Source of the DNA: Aurantiochytrium sp. KH105
Lineage: Eukaryota > Sar > Bigyra > Thraustochytrida > Thraustochytriidae
Assembly (NCBI GenBank): GCA_003116975.1
Contig: BGKB01000044.1
Span: 322,940-386,939, forward strand
Direction: 5' to 3'
DNA length: 64,000 nucleotides
Shown: positions 10,672 to 64,000 of the stretch, in pieces
Layout of the letters: the number at the start of each line of letters is the position of its first letter
Numbering within the stretch: position 1 is the first letter of the stretch
Program-made: the position numbers and the translations under genes
The notes under the pieces: model-generated
The model's database searches: none
Told to the model about the DNA's origin: nothing
What the model saw: the letters and a program-made list of their open reading frames with translations, nothing else

Positions 10672-13600
10672 ATGTCGTCCTCATCAATGGCGGCAGCTGG
10701 CGGTGCGCCTTCCGAAGCACTGACAATTCGCCGCGCAGAAGCTGAGGATGCACGCCGACTTGCCGACCTTGTCGACGCCGAAGCGTGGCTCAAAAGCGCC
10801 GAAACGGGATCAATCACAAGCGCAAACTTTGAGGACAGCTTCGTGAGCGAATTGCTGCCTGGGTCTTTACTGTGCGTTGCGGTCGAGGACGCGCAAGGGC
10901 AAATCGTTGGCTTTGCTGCCTTTGATGATCGTCCAACACGAGGTTTTGCCTCGGCGGAGCAAGCTTGCGCAGCCATTGAGATGCCAGGCGCGGACTCTGC
11001 AAATACCATTTTTCTCACTTGCTGGGGATCTCAGGAAGACATTAGCGCAGCTTGCCTTGACTTGTGCATGCGCACACTCTTCGACACGCTGCCACGAAGC
11101 GACTATGTTGTCATCATGTGCCACCCCCGGTGCCGCGACAAAGAGCTTTTCCGAGACATGTATTTCGACGACGCTGGCATTTACGATTCAAGCGACGCAA
11201 AGGACGAAGGAGCGCAGTGGCTTGTTCTCTGCTCAGGAAGAACGAGCTGGAGACTGAACCTGGATACAAGGCCTGCCCAAGTCGAGGACTACGATGACCT
11301 CGTAAAAATCTTCGATGCCCAAAGTCAGATTCTCACCAAGACCTTTGGAGAGTTCTTCCTGGCGGAACTGATTGAGGCGCAGGATGAAGATAATCGCGCC
11401 GTAGCTGCAACTCTGCGTGGGCGCGCTGTCGGCATGATGTGTCTCACAACGCAAGTCGACGTCGGTCTTTTGCAGAACAACTTTGAACTGGACGCCTTTG
11501 ACAATCTCGTTGCCTCGAGCGAAGTATCTGCAGAGAACGAGGCTGCCTTTGGTAGTGAAGCAAAGCTTGCGGAGCGTGCTTCCGAAAACGTCTTTGCCAT
11601 CTCTGTATTTTGCATCGCTGAGGAACATAGGTCAAGAACGCGTGATGTTCTCATTGCCGCATTCGAGTCTTTTCCGGGCAAAGAATACCTTGCACTGACC
11701 CTGCCATGCGAGGTGCACGAAAGCGCATTGCTGCCTTTTTTCACCGCGATTGCACCTCGAGACGGTACAACGCTTTCTCACAGCCTCTATGTTCTCCACC
11801 GGGACGCGCTCCGCGTGCTCAAGGCAGCTGATTTTGCGCTCGATGGTGCGATCGAGGCCAAGACTGGCTCCGAAGGAAAGTACGATGCGCACGTCCCAGT
11901 CCCGCGTTGGGTTGGCGGCAGTCAGATGCGCGTTCGCGTCTCAGACATGAGTCAGCTCGATCAAAGCGCCATAGCAAGCCTTCTCGATGGCCTGGAGATG
12001 AGCGAAGAGGCCCAGAACCAGGCCGCCCATGCGGACAATCAAGCTCTGATGGTCGAGGTTCTTGGTCAGCTCATCGGATTGGTCGTGTTGCAACCGGGCG
12101 TCAATCCTGATGAGCTCGAAAAGCTCGGCCAAAAGTTTCACATGGAAGCTGTCCAGGGAATCCCGACGTCAGCCGCACAGCGAAGGCATCTCCGGATCAG
12201 TGCAGTTCTGCAAATGTCACTGCTTCCCATTTTCAATCAGTTCGCTCGGCTCATCCTCCAAGAGGTGATGCGCCAGGTCAACGTGCACGGCCTCATCTTT
12301 CAACTCTTCCCCGGGCAGCTTCCACCCGTGGCAGTTGTTGAAGAAATGGTACCACTCCGCCCGAGACGAACGTTCTCACTGCAGCGTGCGCGAAAGCTGC
12401 GTCACGTGCACGAGCCTCCAGAGGAGAACACGCGCTTTTCACTCTTCATGCTTTCGCGTGCTGCACTCTCAGAGCCGCGTCTTACTTTGAATGCGCGTAT
12501 TGTGGTCGTCGGCGCGTCGACTGCAGGTCTGTCTTTGCTGGAGGAGCTGCTTACGATTCCTCATGCGCATTTCCCTAAACTCACCCTCATTGCACCCGGA
12601 GGAGTTGCTGATGAACGCTTTGATGGAGTGCGCGGACTTTGCACACAGGGTACGAGTGCTCCTGGCGCGTACGATTCGCGCTTTTTGGACCGCCTTGGAC
12701 TACGGGAACGCGTCACCATCGTAGAAGAGCGAATGCTCTTCATTGAGCGCGAACCACAGGCCGTGGTACTTGCAGACGGCTCCTTGTTGCAGTACGATTT
12801 CCTCGTGCTTGCCACAGGCCTGCAGGACACTTCGTTGCATCGACTGTGCGACGTCAAGCATGCAGAACTTGCTAACTCCAAGTCTCTCGCTGAATCTGCA
12901 TACTCGGTTGGCGGAAACCCCCGGGAAGCTGTTTTCCTGCGAAGGGCGATCCAGGCGAAGCACGTCAAGGTCAAGGCGCAAACCCTGGTTTATGGTGCCA
13001 CGCTCGAAGCGTACGCAGTTGTACAGTCTCTGCTGGATTGGGGTCTGCCAGGAGCGAGCATCACCATGATCCATCCACCGGACGCCCCCTGTCCGTTTTC
13101 GCGCGACACTTGGATTTCGGAGCGCGTCGCGCAAGCTGTCGAAGCCGCTGGAGTCGTCGTTGTCCAAGGACTTCGCCTGGTTGGCGTTACCCGAGATCCT
13201 GGCACAGGCGCTGTGTGCCAAGCAAGTTTCTTGAAGGAGACCAAGGCGCAAGCGGAAGAGCAAAGCGACGATATCCCCACCGGCACGGAAGGTTCAAGCT
13301 CCGAGAACCCCGAGTCTGAAGAATCAAAATTAGAAGGAGCAGCATCGAGCGCCTCGGCAACATTCGAGGCCGCGGGCAGTGTCAGTACGAATGCAAGGGC
13401 TTTGCTCCGCGAATCAATGGAGGCCTACGAGACGACAGCGCCGGGAGTGGAAGGCGAAGCCTTGGAGGTCATGAAGTGCCGTCTTTTTATCACGGCAGAC
13501 ACGAAGAACGTGGACCCTGACATTTTTGCATCGGTGAACGACACGGGCCTCGTTTACGATGGTCGCATGGTAGTGAATAGCTGCTTCCAAACAGTTGATT

Positions 13601-14487
13601 CTCGCATCTTTGGCTGTGGCACAAACACCAAGTTCTCACGAAGATACCGGGCCCCGCTGACAATCGAGCACCACAGCTCTCGTGAGGTCGGGGCACGCAT
13701 TGCCGCGAGTCTGCTCCGCTTTGTTGATCCGCTGCGGTCCAGCGAGGCCGCGAAAGAAGGCCTTCCCGATACTCTTCCCGTGTGGTCGATGCCGCACGTG
13801 AAGGCGCACAATGTCGAGCTTCCTGGCAAGGTGTCCTATTTCCATGCGTGCACACCGGGCTGGGACGGCTCCGCACGGCACTCTGTGCTCGAGACAAAGT
13901 CCGAGACGGGATTCTGTCGACTCGAGGTGACTCACGCTGGTTACCTTGCTAGCGTCTCTTACGGTATTAGCGAGGAGGCGATTCTTACGCGGAGCGAAGG
14001 CCAGTCATTGAGTGCTGCCCGTATTCGCGCGCTCAAGAACCGAACAGTGCCTGTCGATCAACTTGTCGGCCTCCATCTTTCGTATTTGAACGGGATCGAG
14101 GACCAGCTCGCGCGTGGTCGAGTCGAAGATCTTCTTGAGTTTCTCTCTCAGGATTGGGCTTCCGCTTTGTATCACGATCGCTTTGGCAGCTTTTGTCGCG
14201 ACTTGCAAGGATTCTTTGCCAGTGAGGCAGATCGGGACCTCAAGGATGTTGTGCGCCAGCTTACTGCGACATATGCTTCGGAGACTGCCGAGGAGCTCGA
14301 TATTGCTGCGCAGCGCAGTCAGCTCATTGGCCCATCGGGCCAGGCTCTGCCAGGTCTCGCCAAGAAGTCGATTCAAGCTCGTGTCGTGAGTTTCCTTCGC
14401 AGCAATGCCGATCTACTTGACATGTACGCGCTCCCGGCGCTTCGTTCGCCTCATTTCGGTGCTTCGGCAAGACTTGACAAGAAGTAA
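10672..14487 (+). CDS. CFAP61: Cilia- and flagella-associated protein 61 (CFAP61/FAP61)
   Basis: 1271 residues from the ATG at 10672 (human CFAP61 is about 1240). CFAP61 belongs to the calmodulin- and spoke-associated complex at the base of radial spokes, near spoke 3, in motile axonemes. The N-terminal half has an acetyltransferase-like beginning, LTIRRAEAEDARRLADLVD. A second similar block follows (TRPAQVEDYDDLVKIFDAQ), as does the family-typical LQNNFELDAFDNL. The C-terminal half has a Rossmann nucleotide-binding fold opening with NARIVVVGASTAGLSLLEEL at about residue 607, and further flavoprotein-disulfide-reductase-like motifs (LVLATGLQDTSL, IFGCGTNTKFSRRYRAP). An acidic Ser/Glu-rich insert (about 860-915) interrupts this part. 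No intron. The presence of this gene implies a motile flagellated stage, such as a zoospore. Family assignment is by recognised motif order. Confidence 0.88.
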   Translation: MSSSSMAAAGGAPSEALTIRRAEAEDARRLADLVDAEAWLKSAETGSITSANFEDSFVSELLPGSLLCVAVEDAQGQIVGFAAFDDRPTRGFASAEQACAAIEMPGADSANTIFLTCWGSQEDISAACLDLCMRTLFDTLPRSDYVVIMCHPRCRDKELFRDMYFDDAGIYDSSDAKDEGAQWLVLCSGRTSWRLNLDTRPAQVEDYDDLVKIFDAQSQILTKTFGEFFLAELIEAQDEDNRAVAATLRGRAVGMMCLTTQVDVGLLQNNFELDAFDNLVASSEVSAENEAAFGSEAKLAERASENVFAISVFCIAEEHRSRTRDVLIAAFESFPGKEYLALTLPCEVHESALLPFFTAIAPRDGTTLSHSLYVLHRDALRVLKAADFALDGAIEAKTGSEGKYDAHVPVPRWVGGSQMRVRVSDMSQLDQSAIASLLDGLEMSEEAQNQAAHADNQALMVEVLGQLIGLVVLQPGVNPDELEKLGQKFHMEAVQGIPTSAAQRRHLRISAVLQMSLLPIFNQFARLILQEVMRQVNVHGLIFQLFPGQLPPVAVVEEMVPLRPRRTFSLQRARKLRHVHEPPEENTRFSLFMLSRAALSEPRLTLNARIVVVGASTAGLSLLEELLTIPHAHFPKLTLIAPGGVADERFDGVRGLCTQGTSAPGAYDSRFLDRLGLRERVTIVEERMLFIEREPQAVVLADGSLLQYDFLVLATGLQDTSLHRLCDVKHAELANSKSLAESAYSVGGNPREAVFLRRAIQAKHVKVKAQTLVYGATLEAYAVVQSLLDWGLPGASITMIHPPDAPCPFSRDTWISERVAQAVEAAGVVVVQGLRLVGVTRDPGTGAVCQASFLKETKAQAEEQSDDIPTGTEGSSSENPESEESKLEGAASSASATFEAAGSVSTNARALLRESMEAYETTAPGVEGEALEVMKCRLFITADTKNVDPDIFASVNDTGLVYDGRMVVNSCFQTVDSRIFGCGTNTKFSRRYRAPLTIEHHSSREVGARIAASLLRFVDPLRSSEAAKEGLPDTLPVWSMPHVKAHNVELPGKVSYFHACTPGWDGSARHSVLETKSETGFCRLEVTHAGYLASVSYGISEEAILTRSEGQSLSAARIRALKNRTVPVDQLVGLHLSYLNGIEDQLARGRVEDLLEFLSQDWASALYHDRFGSFCRDLQGFFASEADRDLKDVVRQLTATYASETAEELDIAAQRSQLIGPSGQALPGLAKKSIQARVVSFLRSNADLLDMYALPALRSPHFGASARLDKK

Positions 14488-48810: not shown

Positions 48811-49958
48811 CTAAATGTTGTTGGTCAGATTTGCAAGCGGCGCGTGACCCTGACTGTCAATTGCACTTTCATAGCCAGCCTTCATCATGAACTGCCGTTG
48901 GAGAGCTACCTTTTCTTGCAAGTTGGATACCTTTTCCATCCAGCGTTCGACCTCAAGTTTGCGTTCGTTCACACCTTGCTCAAGATGGATCTCCAGATCC
49001 TGCACTTGAGATTCAAGCCGCGCAATTTCCCTTTGCGCAGCAACAAGGTCGCGGCTTCCTGATGCTTCCGCGCTCTCTGCCCATTTCCGATTCTTTTCTG
49101 CACGAGACTTCCACTCGTCGATCTCTTGCTTAAGAGTCTCACGTTCTGTTTTCGCCTTTTCAGCAGCCTTGGCAGCCTCGGCAGCCTCGGACCGAGCAGC
49201 TCGAACAGCCTCAGCAGCCTCCTGCTTGCTCTCTTGGAGGACTTGTGCAGCCTCCGCCTTGGCAGCCTCCACAGCTTGTGCGATCTTCGTTGCGATTTCC
49301 TCCTCGGTCCATCGTGGTGAAGAAGGCGACGGTGACGGCGACGATGCCGACGAAGAGGTCTTTGTCCTTCCTGTCGGTGAGGAATAAGTCTGTGTAAACG
49401 AAGGTGACTGTGCGTTCTCGTTCCCGAGCGCACTCAGTCTCGAGGGCGACGACGACTCGTTAAGACGAGCCGCAGATAACTCCTTCAACTCGCGAGCGAG
49501 CGAATCTTTTCCGGCCGTCTCGAGTTCGAGCATACGCTCGAGATCAGCCAAGATTTCCAAAGTTGCGCTGCGCTCAAGGCTGTAGAACTCGCGGTCCTCC
49601 TCCTGTACGACGCAACGCAACAAATACATCAGGGTAAATAAATTGAGTCAGTTGTGCATGCACACAAATCGTCGACCAATATCTTCCCTTGCCCCCAAAG
49701 GCATTAACATGGCAAGATGCTCAAATTGTGCAGGATGGCCGTGATTTTTAAAAACCTTGACGTGATACCCTCCCCCCCCCCAAAAAGAATGGTCGCCTTC
49801 GAACTTACATAGACTTTGATGAGCTGCTCGTTATCCTTGCGCAGCATCTCCATTCGCGCAGCTGCAGCAGCGAGGGCACGGACTTCAGGGCCTGCCTCCG
49901 CTGCAGCGTCGTCGTCGCCGCCGCCATCCTGCCGCCTCGAAGACGAGGCTTCAGCCAT
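48811..49958 (-). CDS. Coiled-coil protein of unknown function, two exons
   Basis: Exon 1 is 49809-49958 and exon 2 is 48811-49602, with a 206-nt intron (49603-49808) having GTAAGT at the donor and GTACAG at the acceptor. Phase 0 joining gives a 313-residue protein. Across the junction the heptad pattern continues (MLRKDNEQLIKVY then EEDREFYSLERSATLEILADLERML), which supports the splice. The N-terminal 25 residues are Gly/Asp/Ala-rich. Residues 85-145 are Ser/Thr/Pro-rich with a Ser/Pro run. Residues 145-295 are a long Ala/Glu/Lys coiled coil ending VALQRQFMMKAGY. No known domain is recognised. Divergent from BRX1 with 489 bp between starts. Confidence 0.75.
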
Positions 49959-50447
49959 GGCGAAAATCTCCTGCCTCCAGAGACCGGTGTTTCCTGCGCG
50001 TAAGTCCCCTCCCCTGTCCGTCTTGGCCTCGCACGGCGTGAAGTGCAGCACGCTCCGTCGCGGCCTCGTGCCGCGCGCGCGCGCACAAACAAGGTTATTG
50101 TCCTTCTCCGCCCCGTCTAGCCGAGCAGTCTCCGCTACGGTTAGACACCTTCCCTGCTTGCCGCCAGCCACGAAACGGCGCGAGGTTTCGCCGTTGGCGA
50201 AACGCAAAAGCGAAAAGGGGCGCAAGTGGGCCTGTTGCGGGAGGGACGGGCGGCAAAAGTAGCGGGTGGCTTTGCTCGCCAGCGAGGGCCGCGCAGAACC
50301 AGTCGGCAGCGGGCACGGTCGTGCGGCGCAGGCGGAGCAGCAAAGCCGTGGCCGGGGAGACTTGCGCGGCGCGCAGGCGGAGAGCAAGGCCGAGGCCAAG
50401 GTCGAGGCCGAGGTCGCGGCCACGCCCGCAAAAGCTCGGTGAGGAAG
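49959..50447. other. Divergent promoter region between coiled-coil gene and BRX1
   Basis: 489 bp, GC-rich. No repeat word shared with the other divergent promoters was seen. Confidence 0.55.
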
Positions 50448-51614
50448 ATGAAGCGAAAGCTCTCCAAGGGCGCCGCGACGGAGCGCAGGAGGTCGCGACG
50501 CGTGGACCTCGAGGACATGGTCCGTCTGGACGGCGTCAAGGGCGAGCGCAAGGCGCGCGCTGCGGCCAAGAAGACCCGCGAGGAACTCGACCAAGCCAAG
50601 GCCGAGGCCGATGCCGAAGCCGAGGCGTATGCCAAGGCCGACGAGGAAGACCTCGCGAGCTCCGAGGACTCGGAGAGCGAGGTCGAGGGCGAGGACTTGG
50701 AGGCCGACGAGTCCGAGGAGAAAGTAAAGGGCTCCCTGTCGAAGCGTGACCAGGAGGTCATGCGCGAGCGTAACGCAGAGCTCGACAGAGTGGCAAACAT
50801 CGTTCCGTACCGCAACAAGCAGCGCGTGCTCATCTTTTGCAGCCGTGGCATCACCTCGCGCTTTCGGCACCTGATGGATGACATGCGAAGTCTGCTGCCA
50901 CACCACCGGCGGGAAATCAAGCACGACACGAAACGTAACTTGCACGAAATCAACGAAGTTTGCGAGCTCAAGGGCTGCAACAACTGCCTCTTCTTTGAGG
51001 CGCGCAAGCGAAAAGACCTTTACATGTGGCTGAGTAAGACACCCAACGGGCCTTCGGTCAAGTTTCATGTGCTTAATATTCATACCATGGACGAGCTGCG
51101 TTTGAGCGGCAACTGTCTCAAGGGAGCCCGCCCTTTGCTCTCTTTTGCAAATGAGTTTGATGTGGACCCGACACTGCAACTCATCAAGGAGCTCTTTACG
51201 CAGATCTTTGGCACCCCCCGTGGCCATCCGAAGAGCAAACCGTTTGTCGACCATGTGATGAACTTTAGCCTTTTGGACGGCAAGATCTGGTTCCGCCACT
51301 TTCAAATTGTTGACACGACCCAGGACGCCAAAGAAATTCGCCGTGCGCTCAAGCGTGGCGAGGAGACTGTCAAGCTTGTGGAGATTGGACCCCGTTTCGT
51401 GTTGGATCTCATCAAGGTTTTTGACGGAAGTTTTGGCGGCCGCACGCTAGTGGAGAACCCGGCGTACGTGACGCCCTCGGCTGAGCGCAGTGAGATCATG
51501 AAGGGCCGCGGATCAAAGTACGCGGCGCGTGTCCAGGACAAGGTCGATCGCGCGGCCCGTTCCGAGGTCAACGTGCTTCCCCACGACCCCGTCCGCGAAG
51601 TCTTTCGTTCATGA
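50448..51614 (+). CDS. BRX1: Ribosome biogenesis protein BRX1 (Brix domain)
   Basis: 388 residues from the ATG at 50448; human BRIX1 has 353. BRX1 is a nucleolar factor for assembly of the 60S subunit, binding 25S/28S rRNA with partners such as Ebp2, whose gene is also in this window. The first 105 residues are charged, with an acidic run DEEDLASSEDSESEVEGEDLEADESEE. The Brix domain begins QRVLIFCSRGITSRFRHLM and continues with the BRX1-specific DMRSLLPHHRREIKHDTKRNL, LKGCNNCLFFEARKRKDLYMWLS, GPSVKFHVLNIHTMDELRLSGNCLKGARPLLSF and NFSLLDGKIWFRHFQIV. LVEIGPRFVLDLIKVFDGSFGGRTLVENPAYVTP closes the domain. These blocks separate BRX1 from the other Brix proteins. The first in-phase ATG upstream of the conserved part was used. 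No intron. Confidence 0.96.
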   Translation: MKRKLSKGAATERRRSRRVDLEDMVRLDGVKGERKARAAAKKTREELDQAKAEADAEAEAYAKADEEDLASSEDSESEVEGEDLEADESEEKVKGSLSKRDQEVMRERNAELDRVANIVPYRNKQRVLIFCSRGITSRFRHLMDDMRSLLPHHRREIKHDTKRNLHEINEVCELKGCNNCLFFEARKRKDLYMWLSKTPNGPSVKFHVLNIHTMDELRLSGNCLKGARPLLSFANEFDVDPTLQLIKELFTQIFGTPRGHPKSKPFVDHVMNFSLLDGKIWFRHFQIVDTTQDAKEIRRALKRGEETVKLVEIGPRFVLDLIKVFDGSFGGRTLVENPAYVTPSAERSEIMKGRGSKYAARVQDKVDRAARSEVNVLPHDPVREVFRS

Positions 51615-61813: not shown

Positions 61814-64000
61814 ATGGCGCACAACAGGTGGAAGGACCTGGAGGGCACGGCGACCAAGACCGGCCTCACGGCATGCGACACGGAGCCCGTGCACCTGGTG
61901 CCCCTGATTCAGGAGGGCATGGGCGCCGTCATCGTGGTCCACGTGACCGGCGAGAACAAGGACGAGGCCATCGTCAAGCAGGTCTCGTCCAACATCGAAG
62001 AGTGGACCAAGCTCGGCCCGGATGGGATGGTCAACCGCCCCATGCAAGAGGTCCTTCCCGAGGGCATCTGCGAGCTCGTGGAGGAGGCCGTCAACTTTGA
62101 CCTGCTCCCCATTGAGTGCAGCACCAACCTGCCCGCGCGCTTCAAGGAGCAGGTCCTGGGCCAGGACATGTGCGACTGGTGGAAGGACATTTACACCATG
62201 GACGAGGCCCAACGCTTCCTCAAGTCCAACTCTACCGTGCCTCCACTCGCCGCAAGAGACATGACGCGTCGCCTCGCAATTGGTGACAAACCTCACGTCC
62301 ACGTCTCGGCAGCAGCCTCGCGCCGGCCCGCAGAGGGAAACCAAGCAAAGAACATGCCCGGGGAGGACTTTCGCCCCGTCTGGTCCGTCATCATTACGCT
62401 CGAGGAATCCGATGCCGATACCGATACCTTCTCGAATGACTACGCTGCCGTGGAGAAGCTCGATCGGCAAAATTGGCAGCTTGAGCTCGCCCGCGACGAG
62501 CAAGAACTAGCCACCCTCCTCACCGAGTATGTGGCCGACTTTTGCAAGTTCGACCGCGTCATGTACGTCAACTTTCTCCCCGGCGGTCACTGCGAGGTCG
62601 TTGCGGAAAAGGCAACACCGGGAACCCCGACATTTATGAACTTTCGTTTCCCTGCCACCGACATTCCCATGCAGGCTCGTGCTTTGCTCAAACGAAACCG
62701 CGTGCGCCACATCATGGACACCGGCTCTCCTGGCGCTGAGCTTGTTCCATGCCATGTCGACGGCAAGCTCACCGATCTCAGCAACTGTCATCTGCGTCAG
62801 TGCGGACCCATCCATCGACAGTATCTCAACAACATGAAGGTTTTCTCGAGCTGCACGGCTGGTGTCATGGTCGACGACATGCTCGTCGGTATGCTTTCCT
62901 GCCACCACAAGGCCAAGCCCCTGACCATGGGGCCTGCCAAGCGCATGCTGCTTCGCCAGCTCTGCAAGTCAGCCAGTTCCGTGCTGCAGGGCATCCGTGC
63001 TCGCCGTGGCCGGCGCCTTGCGGCCAAGATCCAGCGCGTACTCCTCCCTCGCTTCGAGTCCGTCACTCAGGCCGTCGAGTGTCTCTCCGAGTCCGAGGGC
63101 ATTCTTCGCGACACGGCCGAGGCCGATGCGCTCGTAATCGTCAGCTACGACTTGGACGCAGAGGAGAACGTGCGCACCGTGCGGCAGGCCCTCACCTTCG
63201 GAGCGAGCGTCGATAGCGACGCCATCATCGCTGCCACACATGAGCTCTCCGATGCCCAGGACAAGGAACTCATCCCGAACACGCCCTGCCTGCGCACAGA
63301 GTGCCCTAACGCCTACGAGGCCCACAAAGCGGCCTTCGAGCGCGATCGCGCCTCTGGTCTCGCCGTCATCCGTCTCGTGCTGTGTGACATTGTTCTCGTG
63401 CGTCTGGGCGTCAAGCAGAACGTTCGCTGGGCAGGCAAGAAGGCCACTACGGGCGCAGATCTCACCACGAATTCCCGGCTCGGGCCACGCGGCTCTTTTC
63501 AGGCCTTTGACGAGCGCCTCGAAGGCGTTGCCTTCGACTGGAGCGACGTCCAGCTCGACGCGCTCAGCTCCTTCCGTGCTCACGCTCACGTGTCGTTCTG
63601 CGATGTTCTCGCCGCGGACGAACGCAGGCGCACGACCAAGCTCACCAAGCGCTTCCTTGCCAGCGTCAGCCACGAGCTGCGTACACCTTTCAACGGTATC
63701 GTCGGTCTTCTCTCTGCCCTGCAAGAGGAGAGCATGCCTGATAGCGCCAAGGATCTTGTTGGCACCGCCGGCCGCTCTGCGGACGCCATGCTTGGCATTC
63801 TCGACGACCTGCTCACCGCTGCCAAGCTTGACGAGCACAAGGTGGAGCTCATGTCCAACCCGGTCGACATTCCGCTGCTGGTCAACTCCGTTTGCCTTCT
63901 CTTCGAGCGCGCCGTGTCCAAGGCGGATCTTTCCCTCGTAGAAAAGGTGTCTGACCATGCCAATCTTGTCAACAAGAACATGCTTGGTGATACCGGACGC
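61814..64000 (+). CDS. Phytochrome-like sensor histidine kinase (PAS-GAF-PHY-HisKA), cut at window end
   Basis: 729 codons from the ATG at 61814, open to the last base. TACDTEPVHLVPLIQEG has Cys21 at the place where bacterial and fungal phytochromes attach biliverdin (CDxEPIH). A PAS-like domain follows. GAF begins near FDRVMYVNFLPGGHCEVVAE and has FPATDIPMQARALL (D283, the PASDIP motif) and LRQCGPIHRQYLNNM with the conserved His334. At the plant-type Cys position there is Ile, so attachment by Cys21 is expected. The PHY domain has RWAGKK (compare WGGDP) and the tongue motif PRGSF (558-562), then FDWSDVQLDALSSFRAHAH. The histidine kinase starts with FLASVSHELRTPFNGIVGLL, H620 being the phospho-acceptor. 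The ATPase part and any receiver domain lie beyond the window. The chromophore and red/far-red sensing are inferred from family knowledge. Confidence 0.9.
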   Translation, partial: MAHNRWKDLEGTATKTGLTACDTEPVHLVPLIQEGMGAVIVVHVTGENKDEAIVKQVSSNIEEWTKLGPDGMVNRPMQEVLPEGICELVEEAVNFDLLPIECSTNLPARFKEQVLGQDMCDWWKDIYTMDEAQRFLKSNSTVPPLAARDMTRRLAIGDKPHVHVSAAASRRPAEGNQAKNMPGEDFRPVWSVIITLEESDADTDTFSNDYAAVEKLDRQNWQLELARDEQELATLLTEYVADFCKFDRVMYVNFLPGGHCEVVAEKATPGTPTFMNFRFPATDIPMQARALLKRNRVRHIMDTGSPGAELVPCHVDGKLTDLSNCHLRQCGPIHRQYLNNMKVFSSCTAGVMVDDMLVGMLSCHHKAKPLTMGPAKRMLLRQLCKSASSVLQGIRARRGRRLAAKIQRVLLPRFESVTQAVECLSESEGILRDTAEADALVIVSYDLDAEENVRTVRQALTFGASVDSDAIIAATHELSDAQDKELIPNTPCLRTECPNAYEAHKAAFERDRASGLAVIRLVLCDIVLVRLGVKQNVRWAGKKATTGADLTTNSRLGPRGSFQAFDERLEGVAFDWSDVQLDALSSFRAHAHVSFCDVLAADERRRTTKLTKRFLASVSHELRTPFNGIVGLLSALQEESMPDSAKDLVGTAGRSADAMLGILDDLLTAAKLDEHKVELMSNPVDIPLLVNSVCLLFERAVSKADLSLVEKVSDHANLVNKNMLGDTGR

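Follow-up and report, generated by a model that had tools for sequence, protein, structure and literature searches.

The 64,000-nucleotide stretch of contig BGKB01000044.1 analyzed here (hereafter the window) ends within a gene for a phytochrome hybrid histidine kinase. The gene is intact, is conserved between haplotypes, and encodes a protein with the order PAS-GAF-PHY-HisKA-HATPase-receiver. With a probability of roughly 0.68, we read the product as a working but retuned biliverdin-type hybrid-kinase phytochrome of the bacterial/fungal kind, in a colorless marine protist that is probably a thraustochytrid. Plants, algae, fungi, amoebae, and bacteria are all reported to have phytochromes. The protein is a member of this known kind with an uncommon pocket. 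Its most unusual part, overlooked by the original prediction made from this DNA, is this pocket, above all the loss of the equivalent of Tyr176 of DrBphP, the bacteriophytochrome of Deinococcus radiodurans, and of the cyanobacterial phytochrome Cph1. As this residue helps relay the light signal, the protein's mode of light sensing may be uncommon.

No report of a phytochrome from a thraustochytrid, a labyrinthulid, or Aurantiochytrium was found in a search by title and listing that left most subscription papers outside, and automatic genome annotation may already label such genes. In PMC6794264, the sole mention of phytochrome lies in a reference. Thraustochytrids live without photosynthesis. 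If it works, the phytochrome would be a clean test of the role of red/far-red sensing in a non-photosynthetic stramenopile, and its naturally occurring Val in place of Tyr176 would directly test the coupling of pigment to kinase.

Gene structure and domain architecture

The open reading frame (ORF) begins with the ATG at window position 61814 and runs without a stop to the window end (64000, + strand). This part (61814..64000, +) comprises codons 1-729 of 1,133, as judged by ORF reading, Pfam matches, and a second copy on contig C130 that is open over equal length. The complete frame on the genome contig is L003:54-3452 plus TAA, and its last sense codon ends at what would be window base 65212. 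Both copies consist of a single frame of 1,133 codons with a TAA stop and no intron.

The source genome assembly (76.0 Mb, 367 contigs) was searched for the PHY family, which was found at two places only, the window gene and the copy on C130. The copies are 96.3% identical across the 3.8 kb holding the gene and 95.1% identical across 6.0 kb of flanking DNA, which was compared on the downstream side only; they are read as haplotypes. A second phytochrome gene was rejected, since the genome search gave one PHY locus per haplotype. The copies differ at 97 codons, 84 of them silently and 13 with an amino acid change. The ratio of nonsynonymous to synonymous substitution rates (dN/dS) between them is 0.045 overall, with 0.11 in PAS, 0.044 in GAF, 0 in PHY, 0.042 in the kinase, and 0.022 in the receiver; residues 401-605, the PHY part, show no amino acid difference. 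Because dN/dS is low in every part, the protein is maintained by selection along its whole length. A pseudogene was ruled out, given that both copies are open and dN/dS is 0.045.

Pfam matches were judged against the curated cut-offs. The GAF domain (residues 228-389; 62495..62980, +; PF01590) scored 29.5 bits against a cut-off of 22.4, the PHY domain (residues 457-589; 63182..63580, +; PF00360) 50.8 bits against 27, and the HisKA domain (residues 613-674; 63650..63835, +; PF00512) 54.6 bits against 26.9. The ordered GAF and PHY matches place the protein among phytochromes. The expected phospho-acceptor of HisKA is His620 in SHELRTP (619-625). The original prediction had looked to the sequence past base 64000 for the rest of the kinase, and HATPase_c (87.1 bits) and Response_reg (34.6 bits) are both located there, above their cut-offs. 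The boxes of a hybrid kinase are present (SHELRTP at 619, NLLGNALKFS at 736, DEGIGI at 848, and GTGLGL at 880), as are the receiver Asp and Lys motifs (VVVDFHMP at 1042 and IIKP at 1093). When numbered from the ATG at 61814, the motifs CDTEPVH, FPATDIP, CGPIH, PRGSF, and SHELRTP occur in the order and at the places first described.

Conserved residues of the chromophore pocket

The protein was aligned with 77 bacterial rows, all of them phytochromes taken from the genome collection. The retrieval scan used two motif patterns, one of them the Cys motif; at least 575 of at least 595 stretches encode a relative, of which the 80 best were taken. With two loci filed as viral, 82 rows were tried, of which five (L041, L049, L098, L105, and L106) were dropped because the filter [FY]PA[STA]DIP missed them. 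Among plasmids, 117 records had a match; eight were retrieved and six entered the first alignment. Since rows were chosen by these motifs, the conservation of the Cys motif and of columns 279-285 is partly a selection effect. DrBphP residue numbers are those that we take to apply, matched by motif (Tyr176 through FDRVMLYKF).

Thirteen residues are identical to all 77 bacterial rows: Cys21, Asp283, Arg298, Arg328, His334, Tyr337, Asn340, Met341, His364, Trp539, Gly541, Ser561, and Phe562. The core of the pocket is complete, with Asp283, Arg298, Arg328, His334, His364, and PRGSF 558-562. Cys21 of CDTEPVH (61874..61876, +), Cys in 77/77 rows, is the expected biliverdin-linking residue. FPATDIP (279-285; 62648..62668, +), a motif by which rows were partly selected, contains Asp283, equivalent to DrBphP Asp207. 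In the alignment, CGPIH (330-334; 62801..62815, +) and CHH (363-365; 62900..62908, +) supply His334 and His364, the equivalents of DrBphP His260 and His290. Ile333 stands at the plant-Cys position directly before His334, so the plant-type GAF Cys is absent, as first noted. With Cys21 ahead of PAS and no Cys adjoining the GAF His, the assignment to the bacterial/fungal, N-terminal Cys type held. The tongue carries WAG (539-541; 63428..63436, +), its W(G/A)G motif, and PRGSF (558-562; 63485..63499, +), both located by alignment.

Two descriptions in the original prediction need revision. The IQPHG motif is indeed altered, but IQEGMG is better described as a one-residue insertion plus substitutions that retain Gln33 and Gly37. 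RWAGK, listed there as the WGG-type PHY motif, is not unusual, as WAG occurs in 55/77 and WGG in 22/77 bacterial phytochromes.

The predicted structure covers a joint PAS-GAF-PHY fold. Within the PAS region, residues 98-147 (62105..62254, +) have a predicted local distance difference test (pLDDT) score below 50, and at least 90% of the bacterial rows have gaps opposite residues 98-127 and 139-150. The protein has about 60 extra residues ahead of GAF compared with these rows, and the segment 98-147 partly makes them up.

Altered pocket positions

Cys260 (62591..62593, +) occupies the position of an invariant Gly, present in all 77 bacterial rows, in plant phyB, and in Cph1. Val358 (62885..62887, +) replaces the LWGL Trp, found in 76/77 rows and again in both phyB and Cph1. 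Other changes against the 77 rows are Leu292 (Tyr216; Tyr in 73), Gly331 (Ser257; Ser in 77), and Gly350 (Ser274; Ser in 75). The Trp of PRxSFxxW, present in 74/77 rows, is Phe565. The Ser272 position is Thr, as it also is in 6/77 bacterial rows. By eye, the five dropped rows keep the Tyr176-position Tyr, the Gly, and the LWGL Trp, and the totals with them would be 81/82, 82/82, and 81/82, respectively. The positions of Leu292, Cys330, and Gly331 vary in both controls too, and that of Gly350 varies in phyB. At the sites of three milder changes, Lys342, Ser345, and Met360, both controls keep the usual residue, as they do at the Val252, Cys260, and Val358 sites. Because the pocket appears retuned at these last three sites, the spectrum, thermal stability, or coupling of the protein probably differs from that of standard phytochromes.

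Compared with bacteriophytochromes, the protein has thus replaced Tyr176, Tyr216, Ser257, Ser274, the LWGL Trp, and the SFxxW Trp. It further differs from them in its roughly 60 additional pre-GAF residues, its own fused receiver, its eukaryotic host, and an identity that reaches at most 28% over 500 columns with any of the 77 rows. It shares with phyB and Cph1 the GAF family and the equivalents of Asp207, Arg222, Arg254, His260, Tyr263, and His290. Unlike it, both carry the GAF Cys and keep the equivalents of Tyr176, Gly184, and the LWGL Trp. The order of PAS-GAF-PHY, classical histidine kinase, and C-terminal receiver is like that of fungal Fph and diatom DPH, as outlined in the available part of PMC4422448, and DPH is described as binding biliverdin in the available part of PMC13150293. 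This likeness is one of description, not of sequence, and Fph and DPH may share the pocket changes. The search for relatives covered bacteria, archaea, viruses, plasmids, and PDB chains, and the only eukaryotic phytochromes that came up were plant PDB chains.

Bilin supply and phosphorelay

Heme oxygenase, proposed earlier as a companion to look for, is present in the same genome. Six matches correspond to three domains in two haplotypes, namely one tandem two-domain gene and one single-domain gene. The tandem frame L012:1508-3601 (contig C19; second copy L011 on C3) has two complete domains and a hydrophobic C-terminal tail, and both halves retain the HREAE and GDLSGG motifs. The single-domain enzyme, L014:1816-2568 (C101, with a match also on C92), ends in CCIVM, which resembles a prenylation (CaaX) signal. 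Its best PDB matches are chains named heme oxygenase 1 (E = 2.5e-47), while chloroplastic heme oxygenase 1 gave E = 2.2e-10; the top chains are presumably animal enzymes.

One Hpt locus was found per haplotype (C3:87601-87837 and C19:439755-439991), and its protein carries the motif HSIKGSS. Response_reg gave at least 36 matches in the genome, about 18 per haplotype, the phytochrome gene included. With one Hpt locus for about 18 receiver domains, many kinases may share it.

In the proposed mechanism, heme oxygenase would make biliverdin, which would be bound through Cys21. Light would flip the D ring within the GAF pocket, the PHY tongue would change its fold, and His620 would become phosphorylated. 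The phosphate would then pass to the protein's own receiver at Asp1045, to the Hpt protein, and to a response regulator.

Evaluation of alternative explanations

Several observations weigh against a working, light-switched phytochrome. At the DrBphP/Cph1 Tyr176 position, where 76/77 bacterial rows, phyB, and Cph1 have Tyr, both copies have Val252 (62567..62569, +); this Tyr is highly conserved, though it does not serve to define the family. The available part of a report on the Cph1 variant Tyr176His concludes that Tyr176 is a key residue in linking photoisomerization to tongue refolding (PMC11924222). The loss of its equivalent makes normal red/far-red switching less certain, and Val252 may leave the protein retuned, weakly switching, or light-independent. 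In addition, the protein keeps 47 of 68 near-invariant columns and departs at 21, while bacterial rows tested by leave-one-out change at most 8 of 61 near-invariant columns (median 1), counts that rest on 61-63 columns rather than 68. PAS_2 stayed under its cut-off of 21.4 bits, with 17.4 on the N-terminal fragment and 14.5 on the whole protein. The structure prediction drew on an alignment that included bacterial phytochromes, so some of the fold agreement is to be expected. Finally, the lack of a match to a ferredoxin-dependent bilin reductase, which fits the biliverdin type, comes from a six-frame, exon-by-exon search of the 76-Mb assembly, which may be incomplete. The 21 changed columns were rejected as proof of lost function. 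Among the 42 near-invariant GAF columns, the protein departs at 10, phyB at 8, Cph1 at 6, and the bacterial rows at 0-5 (median 0); because phyB and Cph1 depart so often, the number of changes is not extraordinary for a non-bacterial phytochrome.

The main rival is that the protein binds biliverdin without photoswitching and acts as a light-independent hybrid kinase, either locked or sensing temperature, biliverdin level, or redox; we consider this possible, though distinctly less probable than a working photoreceptor. It would account for Val at the Tyr176 position together with Phe565 in place of the PRxSFxxW Trp, and it fits the engineered precedent, since Cph1 with Tyr176His has a Pfr-like tongue and plant phytochrome with the homologous substitution signals independently of light (PMC11924222, in the part available). 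The propionate contacts point the same way: a femtosecond study of DrBphP describes, in its available part, Ser272 and Ser274 as anchoring the C-ring propionate and Ser257 as contacting the B-ring propionate (PMC7164956), and here these are Thr, Gly, and Gly, respectively. Against it, the residues most tied to photochemistry, the equivalents of the Cys, Asp207, His260, Tyr263, His290, and PRxSF, are all retained, the PHY part is unchanged between the copies, and other non-bacterial phytochromes depart nearly as often in GAF. As a related and equally tentative idea, lack of the Tyr176 switch residue would suggest a natural phytochrome whose kinase is uncoupled from, or newly coupled to, its pigment. 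Examples may be a constitutively Pfr-like protein with temperature or biliverdin as the signal, or a second, color-shifting bilin link through Cys260, Cys330, or Cys347. Such a protein would be a natural counterpart to phytochromes engineered to carry Tyr176-to-His. A further rival, a degenerate sensor without bilin binding in which only the kinase part matters, would agree with the sub-threshold PAS_2, the altered IQPHG region, and the protein's long terminal branch (4.07 changes per column) in the 78-row tree; it is improbable, as dN/dS is 0.044 in GAF, 0 in PHY, and 0.11 in PAS, and Cys21 and the pocket core are retained.

Bacterial contamination or a recent transfer from bacteria was also considered, as the gene is intronless and its best named matches, among the matches listed, are bacterial. 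This explanation is very improbable and was rejected on the two haplotypes, the eukaryotic neighbors, and the tree. The two copies lie on two contigs and have diverged to the extent given above, and the neighboring genes are eukaryotic. The GC content at third codon positions is 0.74; the neighboring FtsH-type gene has 0.75, and two frames downstream have 0.66 and 0.65. The highest identity to any of the 77 rows is 28% over 500 columns (local tblastn segments reach 33%), and no supported bacterial set in the tree includes the protein, whose own position is unsure because its branch is so long. A scan of viral contigs with the protein alone gave no relative, and 50,697 phage records gave no match at E 1e-5. 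A scan with the alignment gave two IMG/VR loci (L105 and L106) that look bacterial, at 28 and 29%. A viral origin was rejected on these results. Filed as viral, L105 and L106 carry bacteriophytochrome-like frames of 749 codons.

Possible light responses

The original prediction proposed red-light control of zoospores or pigment metabolism. This found no support, as nothing found at the locus links the gene to either, and control of these by the phytochrome is speculation. In our view, control of gene expression or of stage changes would suit a phytochrome kinase better than the steering of swimming. Thraustochytrid zoospore phototaxis is documented, with channelrhodopsins as the proposed receptors, in the available parts of PMC8818676 and PMC12221091. 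Microbial rhodopsins gave six matches in the genome, three per haplotype, one of the three being partial. One of them (L112:1396-3453 on C102, with a matching place on C99) has a long C-terminal part ending in a MYND zinc finger. In diatoms, far-red and blue light activate phytochrome responses, and red and green light inhibit them, a pattern that a review, in its available part, ties to biliverdin (PMC13150293). If the thraustochytrid protein acts like the diatom one, its cue in nature could be underwater blue light.

Host and neighboring genes

The earlier suggestion of a stramenopile host can be sharpened to a probable thraustochytrid from a carotenoid gene fusion. The two best crtI matches sit in 1,318-codon frames, of which 1,102 codons were read. 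Pfam identifies an amine-oxidoreductase-type desaturase domain followed by phytoene synthase (CrtI-CrtB), and a lycopene-cyclase-like end was seen by eye. The available part of PMC5924542 describes a CrtIBY fusion in the thraustochytrid Aurantiochytrium sp. KH105, marks it as present in four others, and gives KH105 as a diploid with scaffolds totaling 76.7 Mb. The first suggestion that the host is flagellated and apparently non-photosynthetic agrees with CFAP61 in the window and with the lack of any light-harvesting family match in the genome search. The CFAP61 gene, at 10672-14484, supports a flagellated stage.

The window holds 17 other long frames, nine of which were scanned with Pfam. A 516-codon frame at 49707-51254 (-) gave no Pfam match at E 0.001. 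CFAP61, an EBP2-type protein, an autophagy conjugation protein, and an FtsH-type protease were among the scanned neighbors and are ordinary eukaryotic genes.
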